Made by a program: the position numbers and the translations under genes | NCBI GenBank assembly: GCA_024637055.1 | Contig: JAGXFZ010000076.1 | Location: 1-32,730 of the forward strand | Length of the DNA: 32,730 nt | Source: Gracilibacter sp. | GTDB taxonomy: Bacteria; Bacillota; Desulfitobacteriia; Desulfitobacteriales; Syntrophobotulaceae | Reading direction: 5' to 3' | The notes under the pieces: model-generated | The model's input: the letters and a program-made list of their open reading frames with translations, nothing else | What the model was told of the DNA's origin: nothing | The model's database searches: none | Part shown: piece by piece, positions 1,918 through 32,730 of the stretch | Position numbering within the stretch: the stretch's first letter is position 1 | Layout of the letters: every line of letters starts with the position of its first letter

Positions 1918-3198
1918 CTATAATAAAAATTCACTATTCTTTCGTTTTTCTAGCAAGTAATTTAGAATCTTATCTCTCGGTATTTCGGTCTGGTCACCCA
2001 GACTCATATCCCGTACGATTACGATGTTCTTGGTCAATTCTTCTTCTCCCATTATCAGCACGTATCTTGCACCCTGCCGATTAGCAAATTTCATTTGATT
2101 TTTCAGGCCTCTACCCATCAAATCCATTGTTGTGGAGATTCCTGCTTGTCTTAGTTCTGTGGAAAGTTTAAAACCTTCCTGTTGTGCTAAGTCCCCAAGG
2201 GCAGCTACTACAACTCCTCCTTCTGCGTCCTCTTCAAAATCTTTTTCTTGATTTTCGAGTACAGCCAATATTCTTTCTATTCCCATGGCAAAACCAATAC
2301 CCGGAGTTGTTGGACCTCCTATTTCTTCTACTAACCCATCGTAACGGCCTCCGCCACAGATTGCACTTTGTGCTCCTATCCCCTCGGCGATGACTTCAAA
2401 AGCGGTTTTTTGATAATAATCCAACCCTCTAACCATCTTCGGATTGATATGATAATCTATCTCTGCCATAGTCAGTAACTTCTGTACTTTAGTAAAATGT
2501 TCAGCACATTGTCCACAAAGAGTATCCAAGGTCGTAGGTACATCAGTTACTATAGCCTGACAAGATGGATTCTTGCAATCAAGAATCCTCATCGGATTTT
2601 TTTCAAATCTTACCTGACAATCATGACATAGGTCGGTCTTTTTGTCCTGTAAGAATTCCTGTAATTTATCACGGTGTTCTACCCTGCATACCGAACATCC
2701 CACTGAGTTGATATGTACTTTAATATTCTTGACACCTATTCTCCTAAAAAATTCCCAGATTAAGTGAATAACCTCTGCATCTACTAATGGGTTGTCTCCT
2801 CCTAAAACTTCGGCGCCAAATTGATGAAACTGACGAAATCGTCCTGCCTGAGTATTTTCATATCTGAACATTGGTCCTAGGTAATACAGTTTAATTGGTT
2901 GAGGTTGACCATATAGCTTGTTCTCCACATAGGCTCTACACACTGAAGCCGTCCCCTCTGGCCGTAATGTAATAGACCTATTGCCCTTATCCAAAAAAGT
3001 ATACATCTCTTTATTAACTATATCTGTAGTTTCCCCGACCCCCCTCTGAAACAATTCAGTTGCTTCAAATATTGGGGTCCTTATTTCTTGATACCCATAA
3101 TCAGAGCATATTTTTCGTATTTCATTCTCAAGATACTGCCATTTCTCAACACTACCTGGAACAATATCCTGAGTACCTTTAGGTCGTTTAATAGACAT
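1918..3198 (-). CDS. hisS: histidyl-tRNA synthetase
   Basis: HisRS attaches histidine to tRNA-His. The 426-residue protein begins [15 protein letters not shown], the usual N-terminus, behind a strong GAGAGGAGG ribosome site. Motif 2 ([15 protein letters not shown]), the HisRS-specific [12 protein letters not shown] loop and GGGRYDGL are present, followed by a C-terminal anticodon-binding domain. A Cys-rich insertion with several CxxC pairs (about 165-235) is usual in clostridial HisRS. It is followed 10 bp later by aspS, the classical Firmicute hisS-aspS pair. In many Firmicutes this pair has a T-box leader; I find no T-box GGUGGNACCGCG-type sequence in the 477 bp upstream, which is occupied by structured repeats instead. 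The near upstream region is AT-rich with a possible TAAAAT -10 but no clear -35. Confidence 0.98.
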
Positions 3199-3289
3199 AT
3201 TCTACCTCCTCTCAAACTATCATTTTACTACATTTTCTGCAACTTTTACAGTTTGTCATTTAAATTATTTATTTTTATTCAGCCCAACA

Positions 3290-3320
3290 CCCCAATGCTA
3301 TCAAAGCTACACTGTAGCTC
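3290..3320 (+). repeat. internally deleted copy of the structured repeat
   Basis: It starts CCCCAATGCTATCAAAGCTA, nearly the same as the start of the full copy at 3488, but the outer arm AGCTACA (3305-3311) is followed after one base by its complement TGTAGCT (3313-3319). The whole interior seems to be missing, leaving only a 7+1+7 palindrome. Confidence 0.6.
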
Positions 3321-3327
3321 TTGCCTT

Positions 3328-3449
3328 CATGCAAGTAGGGTAGCTGCACTGCAGTATGCACTCTCCGGCAATAACGCCCTCCTGGCGTTAACTGCCGCGC
3401 TCCGCATCCGTGCTCCGCTATACCGTGCATACTGCAGCACATCTACCCC
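3328..3449 (-). repeat. full structured repeat, copy B
   Basis: Its outer stem is a perfect 13-bp inverted repeat, CTGCAGTATGCAC (3349-3361) with GTGCATACTGCAG (3425-3437), weakly extended by GGGTAG/CTACCC (3338-3343 and 3444-3449). An inner hairpin (3366-3397) reads CGGCA, a, TAACGCC, loop CTCCT, GGCGTTA, ac, TGCCG. It is followed by GCGCTCCGC and GTGCTCCGC, a short direct repeat. The orientation is opposite to the copy at 3488-3620. Confidence 0.8.
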
Positions 3450-3487
3450 ATGAAAGTAGGAGCAAGCGGAGCACGGAAAGTCCAAAA

Positions 3488-3620
3488 CCCCAATGCCATC
3501 TAAGCTACACCTCAGCATTAACGACAAGCGGAGCATGGATTGCGGAGCGCGGCAGTTTGCGACAGGAGGTCGCAATTGCCGAAAAGTTTATGCTGAGGTG
3601 TAGCTCTCACTTGCATTAAT
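3488..3620 (+). repeat. full structured repeat, copy C
   Basis: Its outer stem is a perfect 16-bp inverted repeat, AGCTACACCTCAGCAT (3503-3518) with ATGCTGAGGTGTAGCT (3590-3605), extending three more pairs after one mismatch. The inner hairpin (3550-3581), read on the minus strand, is CGGCA, a, TTGCGAC, loop CTCCT, GTCGCAA, ac, TGCCG. Loop and flanks equal those of copy B, while the stem differs at three positions per arm, each compensated. Confidence 0.8.
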
Positions 3621-3628
3621 CGAACCTA

Positions 3629-3667
3629 CTGCCGAAAAGTGCTTGCTACGTTATAGCTCTCACCTTG
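3629..3667 (+). repeat. right-half fragment of the structured repeat
   Basis: The stretch from TGCCGAAAAGT to TAGCTCTCAC closely matches the right half of copy C (3577-3610) but has no left half. It ends 9 bp before the hemZ stop codon, so it lies in the immediate 3' region of hemZ. Confidence 0.6.
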
Positions 3668-3675
3668 AGAATACA

Positions 3676-5169
3676 TCAATTAAAAGCCTGCCTAACTTTA
3701 AAATGCACATCCTCGTAACCCTGCATATATGTTCTTAGATCTATAGGATGATAGATGTTCTTATGAGTAGCGTTCTCGAAATTCATTATTTTAGTTACTG
3801 TACCCGCCCCAACACCAAATATATTCTGCTTCTCTTCAATAATAGCGATATTATAATGACATTCATTTCCCGGTGAAGCATAACCAATATTTTCTAGGTT
3901 ACCTACAATGTATTTTTGCCTATAAAGATAATATGGTATCAACCCTCGACTAGTAATACTCGTATGAACATGTTTCTGGATTTCAAGCCAATGCTTTAGA
4001 GAATTAGAAGTATAATTATCTGCCCAAGCATTCGAACCTTTTTTTATGGCCAGAGAATGGACAGTAATATTGTCAGGATTTAATTCTAGTACTTTATTTA
4101 AGGTATCATCAATCTCTCTAAACCCTTCCCCCGGTAATCCAAGAATTATATCCATATTGATTATCCAATTTCCGTTTTTCCTAGCAAGTTCATAACATTT
4201 ATATACATCTTCAACCGTATGTCCTCTGCCAATTCTTTGCAAAGTTGCGTCTTGCATAGTTTGGGGATTGATACTTATTCGATTAACACTACATCGCTCT
4301 AGTATGCTAAGTTTTTCCTGATTTATAGTATCAGGTCTTCCAGCCTCTACGGTATATTCCAGCTTCTTATCTAAAGGAACGTATTTTTTAATAGCATCTA
4401 ATAGTTTTGCCAATTCTTGAGGATTTAGAACTGTAGGGGTACCTCCCCCAATGTAAACAGCATTGATCCTCAATCCTTTGTTCTTTAGCATTTCCCCTAC
4501 AAGTTCAAGTTCCTTTACGAGAACAGCCAAATATTTTTCTATATCAGAACTATCGAGTGTATTAGAAGGGAAAGAACAGTAATAGCAGCGGGTGGGACAG
4601 AAAGGGATGGATACATACAAAGAAGCGAGGTCTGTCCTTACTTTCATGTTCTGCAAAAAAGGTTTTTGAGCCTTAGCGACAGCCTGTAGAAGGACTATTT
4701 TATCACTATTAACCAAGTATATTTCTTCGAGTAGCCTTGTCTTAGTTACGTCTGGTATTCCTAATTCATCCATCTTTAGCATAAGTTTTCCCGGTCTTAT
4801 ACCAGTTAATATGCCCCAGGGAGCTATCTCTTTTGTATATTTGGTCAAAAAAGTAACTGTAGCTTGTTTTAACAATATTTGAAGAACAGATTCTTTCCCT
4901 GGCAGAGTCAATCTTTCCATTATTCCCATATCTGTACCTTGATGACTATAGGATTCAAGCATGTTAGCCTGGCTAAATATTTCAAACTTGAATACCGGCT
5001 GCGGTCTACAACCATTAAAATGTATTTTTAGTTTATATTTATAAGATTGCTGTTCCTTTAACGTTGCTTGAATCTTTTTGCCCGAAAAAAAAGCCGCTAT
5101 TAGTGAATGGCAGCTAAATAAAACCTTATCATCAATCGTATCGCTCTCGACTAATATAATCTCTATCAT
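3676..5169 (-). CDS. hemZ: HemZ-type radical SAM coproporphyrinogen III dehydrogenase-like protein
   Basis: This 497-residue protein belongs to the HemZ branch of the HemN-like radical SAM family, proposed to act in oxygen-independent haem synthesis. The radical SAM cluster motif is CPTRCYYC, with Cys191, Cys195 and Cys198 in the CxxxCxxC spacing. It is followed by the GGGTP SAM-binding motif (VYIGGGTPTVLNPQEL) and the VEAGRPDTI region. The long N-terminal extension (about 1-180) with GILTGIRPGKLM is a hallmark of HemZ and is missing in canonical HemN. Length agrees with Bacillus HemZ (about 500 aa). Its start is 2 bp after the stop of the upstream MBL gene, with only a weak GGGAA site, so it is probably translated by coupling. 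Biochemical activity of HemZ proteins is less certain than the family assignment. Confidence 0.92.
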   Translation of the reverse strand: MIEIILVESDTIDDKVLFSCHSLIAAFFSGKKIQATLKEQQSYKYKLKIHFNGCRPQPVFKFEIFSQANMLESYSHQGTDMGIMERLTLPGKESVLQILLKQATVTFLTKYTKEIAPWGILTGIRPGKLMLKMDELGIPDVTKTRLLEEIYLVNSDKIVLLQAVAKAQKPFLQNMKVRTDLASLYVSIPFCPTRCYYCSFPSNTLDSSDIEKYLAVLVKELELVGEMLKNKGLRINAVYIGGGTPTVLNPQELAKLLDAIKKYVPLDKKLEYTVEAGRPDTINQEKLSILERCSVNRISINPQTMQDATLQRIGRGHTVEDVYKCYELARKNGNWIINMDIILGLPGEGFREIDDTLNKVLELNPDNITVHSLAIKKGSNAWADNYTSNSLKHWLEIQKHVHTSITSRGLIPYYLYRQKYIVGNLENIGYASPGNECHYNIAIIEEKQNIFGVGAGTVTKIMNFENATHKNIYHPIDLRTYMQGYEDVHFKVRQAFN

Positions 5170-32620: not shown

Positions 32621-32730
32621 ATCGAGTAGCTAGAAAACAGGGTAACTAATCCTGTTTTCTTTGCTCTCACAGAACCGGACTTACGTTTGCCGTATCCGGC
32701 TCCTGAAATTTCTCACCAAATTAATAATAA
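32621..32730 (-). mobile_element. 3' end of a group II intron (domains V and VI), continuing past the right edge
   Basis: On the minus strand, domain V is at 32702-32672: GAGCCGGA pairs with TCCGGTTC (including the AGC triad and its G-U pair), an AG two-base bulge follows the upper stem TACG/CGTA, and the loop is GCAAA. Domain VI is at 32668-32624: GAGAGC pairs with GCT-A-CTC, leaving one bulged A (32627), with a 10-bp upper stem AGAAAACAGG/CCTGTTTTCT (32660-32651 and 32641-32632). The sequence after it, CTCGAT, gives a 3' end at 32621, which puts the branch A seven bases from the splice site, as in known introns. The intron-encoded reverse transcriptase would lie beyond the window. Confidence 0.88.

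Follow-up and report, generated by a model that had tools for sequence, protein, structure and literature searches.

Why do two hairpins that lie in opposite orientation between hemZ and hisS differ in their stems when every base outside the stems is the same? The locus belongs to a window of 32,730 nucleotides from Gracilibacter sp. (the whole stretch of DNA analysed here; its genome is named G000, that of a congener G001, and a Dehalobacter-like genome G013). The first hairpin reads CGGCA-A-TAACGCC-CTCCT-GGCGTTA-AC-TGCCG (positions 3366–3397, plus strand) and the second CGGCA-A-TTGCGAC-CTCCT-GTCGCAA-AC-TGCCG (3550–3581, minus strand). An earlier note had proposed that the fold, loop and flanks of this pair are constrained, and that it represents either a structured RNA or a hairpin recognised by a transposase-like protein. 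Both 32-nt hairpins are present as that note claimed, the six differing positions forming three compensated pairs and all 18 non-stem bases being identical. Their upstream neighbour is hemZ (coproporphyrinogen dehydrogenase; 3676–5169, minus strand; NCBIfam TIGR03994, 453 bits) and their downstream neighbour hisS (histidine–tRNA ligase; 1918–3198, minus strand; NCBIfam TIGR00442, 524 bits), and the second copy is located in the 3′ region of hemZ on the same strand, about 69 bp past the hemZ stop. An Rfam scan of the window gave no match above the gathering score in the hairpin region; the only Rfam match of the window was a group II intron domain (RF00029, 44.7 bits) near its right end (32621–32704, minus strand).

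The two hairpins proved to be only the tip of an element of approximately 107 nt, of which the earlier note had covered the apical part alone. Covariance-model matches placed the full copies at 3341–3448 (plus strand; 104.5 bits, E 5.7e-22, model positions 1–107) and, inverted relative to the first, at 3499–3606 (minus strand; 121.9 bits, E 2.8e-26). From the outside inwards the fold comprises an outer helix of approximately 20 bp, an asymmetric internal loop, a helix of 4–5 bp, the 7-bp stem and a TCC loop. The outer helix of copy 1 is the inverted repeat I2 (5′ arm 3338–3361, 88% complementary to the 3′ arm at 3425–3448, plus strand), and that of copy 2 is I3 (5′ arm 3586–3605, 95% complementary to the 3′ arm at 3503–3522, minus strand). 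The internal loop has TTTT on its 5′ side and approximately 26 nt with GCTCCGC-ATCCNT-GCTCCGC on its 3′ side; in copy 1 the latter (3398–3418, plus strand) consists of two GCTCCGC boxes flanking ATCCGT and is kept across genera. Between the internal loop and the 7-bp stem lies the helix CGGCA/TGCCG, and the stem is closed by CTCCT (3379–3383, plus strand, in copy 1), of which TCC alone is well kept among copies, with the variants ATCC, TTCC and CTCC(A/G)T. The left ends differ among copies and genera (GGGTAG, GGGCTG, GGTGAGAG and others). In a genome from another family of the order (G041) CGTCCC/GGGACG replaces CGGC/GCCG as the second helix, the loops being largely unchanged.

The element occurs as a short form of roughly 107 nt and a long form of 150–160 nt, exemplified by the 3′ flank of locus L010, G013:C1:898262-898420, 2119884-2120045 and other matches of 150–160 nt. 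The added block of the long form resembles GCTCCTTGCCATCCATGGCATCGC...GGCCATCCATGGCC and carries more TCC-loop hairpins. Since the long form was found in the genome of origin, in its congener and in G013, both forms are old. The pair in the window is itself located in a nest of elements. The 3′ tail of copy 2 (3479–3510, minus strand) is repeated directly (D2, 88% identity) at 3281–3312 on the same strand as a remnant of another copy, and a fragment at 3630–3663 (minus strand; direct repeat D1, 79% identical to 3577–3610) represents the 5′ end of a host element within which copy 2 is apparently nested.

Copy counting showed that the pair does not stand alone. The likeness of the two hairpins greatly exceeds what chance would give: the pattern CTCCT-N7-ACTGCCGCGCTCCGC, with up to three mismatches, had 34 matches in G000 compared with 0 for a reversed-pattern control. 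The covariance model R1 detected about 53 true copies, besides 17 weak matches, most of which were the same copies detected a second time, as palindromes, from the opposite strand. By covariance model G013 contained 63 copies, and a further genome (G012) 37. In a scan of the family 11 of 25 genomes were positive, including all five of the Dehalobacter-like genus g3 with 39–67 copies each, and genera g5–g9 and g11 had 0 copies. The order scan with model R2 was positive for 12 of 74 genomes, the other 62 being without the element; G041 had 36–37 copies and its congener G048 had 0. The G041 loci (L321, L337–L365) form a homogeneous GC-rich subfamily in which a partial left arm precedes most copies. 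When 398 genomes sampled evenly across the phylum were analysed with strict filters, only members of the family that includes G000 scored. A loose-pattern scan of named genomes returned mostly chance matches in GC-rich genomes, although contigs of two Peptococcaceae assemblies gave true ones, and the queries used found no copy in phage, plasmid and viral contig collections. Thus further copies do exist, with dozens per genome in several genomes. One contig end in G000 (C113, locus L032) carries the Nextera adapter sequence CTGTCTCTTATACACATCT, an assembly contamination.

We then used these copies to analyse covariation. Among 33 copies from G000 there were eight different 7-bp stems, every one with 7/7 Watson–Crick pairs. 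Across 80 copies from several genera 93.8% of the pairs in the structure were standard; two-sided changes filled 824 cells compared with 242 in shuffles, and the covariation score was 0.778, whereas shuffling gave 0.164 and sliding the partners no more than 0.109, the shuffle control leaving relatedness in, the slid-partner control keeping it, and all of these figures being somewhat inflated by an alignment fitted to the structure. An unfitted MAFFT alignment of the G000 copies gave the same picture (0.296 compared with 0.122). Mean column identity was 0.51 in the outer stem and 0.88 in unpaired columns. The proposed constraint on fold, loop and flanks is therefore borne out by the covariation in further copies, whose stem changes are compensated; uncompensated changes were the observation that the earlier note had named against itself.

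Perfect compensatory change is, however, by itself no proof of RNA. A structured RNA acting in transcripts, through 3′-UTR or intercistronic stability, processing or protein binding, would have its compensation driven by RNA folding. Strong covariation, constant loops and the stability of the window pair (folded as DNA, z −8) are in keeping with such a role, and so is the position of most G000 copies: of 34 copies with a same-strand gene upstream, 29 lie 4–85 nt past its stop codon by simple ORF calling. The mismatches point elsewhere. Structured RNAs normally carry many G·U pairs. In the element G·T made up 0.7% of pair cells and A·C 3.0%, so that the G·U intermediates expected of an RNA are almost missing; this near absence makes RNA folding of the given strand a poor driver of the compensation. 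On the strand read with most G000 genes, the mismatches in G000 were 32 A·C and 1 G·T. The bias was weaker in G013, with 67 A·C and 29 G·T, 17 of the latter being in one column that is apparently misaligned. Per column over both genomes, A·C exceeded G·T in 24 and the reverse held in five (p 0.0005; tallied by hand, with columns that are not fully independent). The bias would agree with a fold of the opposite strand, where A·C becomes G·T, as in strand-specific hairpins of single-stranded DNA. The patchy distribution, with presence and absence between congeners, and the lack of an Rfam match also speak against a structured RNA, which we consider unlikely.

The gene context bears on the same question. 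In G013, 24 of the 63 copies run along tandem genes and 20 against them, 12 lie between convergent and three between divergent genes, and the remainder have no gene call on one side under simple ORF calling. Most copies therefore lie in transcribed 3′ regions, and gaps that hold only promoters are avoided, but the orientation to tandem genes is balanced, which speaks against an RNA acting in transcripts. It also disfavours the idea, raised in the earlier note, that the CTCCT loop controls translation by pairing with a Shine–Dalgarno sequence. CTCCT is the complement of AGGAG, and the internal loop has two more CTCC motifs; nevertheless, TCC is the sole well-kept part of the loop, 20 of the 44 tandem-gene copies in G013 are on the opposite strand, so that nearly half of those transcripts would have AGGAG rather than CUCCU, and the 12 copies between convergent genes add to these. 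We regard this pairing as very improbable. Still less credible is an RNA sponge for CsrA on the opposite strand, where the loops would offer repeated GGA motifs (an AGGA loop and ANGGA motifs): CsrA was present in 60 of the 74 genomes of the order whether or not they carried the element, and the element-rich G000 and G041 (assemblies 85% and 91% complete) yielded none. As CsrA and the element did not co-occur, the sponge was rejected.

The arrangement of the copies resembles that of mobile DNA. Neighbours within 600 bp were all (+,−) pairs, 13 of 13 in G013 and 4 of 4 in G000, including the pair in the window, with exceptions to this polarity in other genomes. Nesting was common in G000, a complete copy interrupting the 5′ part of another copy inside its inner hairpin, and the pattern in G041 was similar. 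A T-box-like sequence (GGGTGGTACCGCGGGAGC...CTCGTCCC) adjoins one nested pair in G000, in the 5′ flank of locus L029 (C91, near 17.0 kb). Of four sites compared between G000 and its congener G001, two were empty in G001 (rplQ–truA, and the gap between a pyruvate kinase-type and a DeoR-type gene, the names being read from the sequence); of the other two sites, one held the long form and the other a degenerate copy. Two close Dehalobacter-like genomes had 11 of 15 sites in common, so that recent transposition is not demonstrated there. At least two intergenic sites, flanked on both sides by orthologous genes, also carry elements in both genera (G000 C93:22104 and G013 413132; C56:4209 and 605989), which suggests old shared sites or hot spots. 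Neither a clear target-site duplication nor an exact boundary of insertion was found. Insertion into pre-existing palindromes was tested through the complementarity of the flanks and was significant in G000 alone (permutation p below 0.0002; G013, p 0.19).

At conserved sites of the two Dehalobacter-like genomes the content nevertheless changes, with inter-arm deletions, extra copies and chimeric arms, and one orthologous copy differs by approximately 20% within far more similar flanks and shows several matched double changes. Observations of this kind, together with two-sided changes that lack G·T intermediates, are in keeping with matched arms of purely mutational origin, produced by fold-back template switching or by other copies converting entire elements, with no selection for the fold. 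Such templated correction alone leaves unexplained why unpaired boxes are constant across genera and families and why A·C exceeds G·T in the column tally. As a sufficient explanation it is a tentative possibility, somewhat better placed than a structured RNA; as a contributing process it can coexist with a DNA repeat.

We searched for an enzyme that could mobilise the element. RAYT/Y1 transposases are present in some element-positive genomes. None was found in the element-rich genomes G013, G017 and G023, and none of the Y1_Tnp loci fetched contains an element, leaving a RAYT/Y1 partner unsupported. This search, directed at RAYT/Y1 transposases, yielded no mobilising enzyme, and no parent transposon or insertion sequence was seen. 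The hairpin ends of IS200/IS605-type elements and the attC sites of integrons offer a different precedent, being single-strand hairpins that fold strand-specifically and in which the protein reads unpaired bases and not the stem sequence. By analogy, the unpaired bases of the element, rather than its stems, would be what a protein reads; unlike those systems, it is not linked to an HUH transposase or integrase, and no conserved cleavage motif was identified.

The closest likeness in lifestyle is to REP sequences and REPINs. REPs are palindromes of 20–40 bp belonging to GTAG and CGTC super-families; their stems have alternative complementary bases with compensatory changes and short kept loops, G·T being reported as frequent in GTAG stems, and some families are inserted in palindromes (PMC3733652, PMC3116915). 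In Pseudomonas fluorescens 93% of doublets are inverted with the tags outside (PMC3733652, PMC3116915). The element is likewise intergenic and palindromic, with tens of copies, alternative complementary stem bases and short kept loops, and it forms inverted doublets of one polarity in a comparable tags-outside arrangement (17 of 17 close pairs being (+,−) in two genomes; PMC3116915, PMC3733652). However, it measures 107–160 nt, has nested helices with a one-sided loop of 26 nt, and G·T pairs are rare in it, unlike in GTAG stems. We do not class it as a REP, because it has neither a consistent GTAG or CGTC tag nor a link to a RAYT (Y1) transposase. With MITEs and ERIC/RU-type repeats (PMC10969869, PMC2229807) it shares a non-coding, dispersed, palindromic and intergenic nature and a size of 100–160 bp, and, as for MITEs, copies are present or absent between close genomes. 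Its arms are inverted, but it departs from those repeats in that neither a target-site duplication nor a parent insertion sequence was found, and in that its arms are wholly different between subfamilies. The papers searched for palindromic repeats of Dehalobacter or Peptococcaceae contained no earlier description of it, and most likely it is a new family with a REP/REPIN/MITE lifestyle.

Taken together, our results favour, with a probability of roughly two in three, the reading that the two hairpins represent copies of a palindromic DNA repeat that is intergenic and non-autonomous, that lives like REP/REPINs and MITEs and whose hairpin, formed by one strand, is read by a putative enzyme. A dispersed and patchy distribution, nesting, inverted pairs, presence and absence between congeners and scarce G·T fit recognition of the hairpin by a transposase-like protein better than they fit a structured RNA. 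Of the two identities offered in the earlier note, the former is thus preferred, although its enzyme was not found, and the latter is the less likely. In this reading the unpaired boxes, which are constant (TTTCG, the TCC loop and the two GCTCCGC), would let a cellular or transposon enzyme recognise the hairpin on one of the two DNA strands, with the helices needing only to be complementary and not to keep a fixed sequence. Stems could thereby split into subfamilies whose arms match, and this matching may come from selection on the folded form, from arm-to-arm copying or from exchange among copies, which are not mutually exclusive. The location just past stop codons would mainly reflect what host genes tolerate, and 3′-UTR effects, as side effects on mRNA ends, are possible. 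A more speculative version, slightly less probable even than the structured RNA, is that the element is spread and repaired through a single-stranded hairpin by an enzyme other than RAYT, one arm being copied from the other in each cycle; if true, the replication mechanism itself would generate the complementarity.

Beyond this locus, scarce G·T pairs combined with an excess of A·C over G·T provide a simple test that separates DNA palindromes from RNA structure. With hundreds of copies and close genomes for comparison, the element also forms a dataset for measuring fold-back correction and hairpin recognition, and it is a marker family for Dehalobacter-like organohalide respirers.
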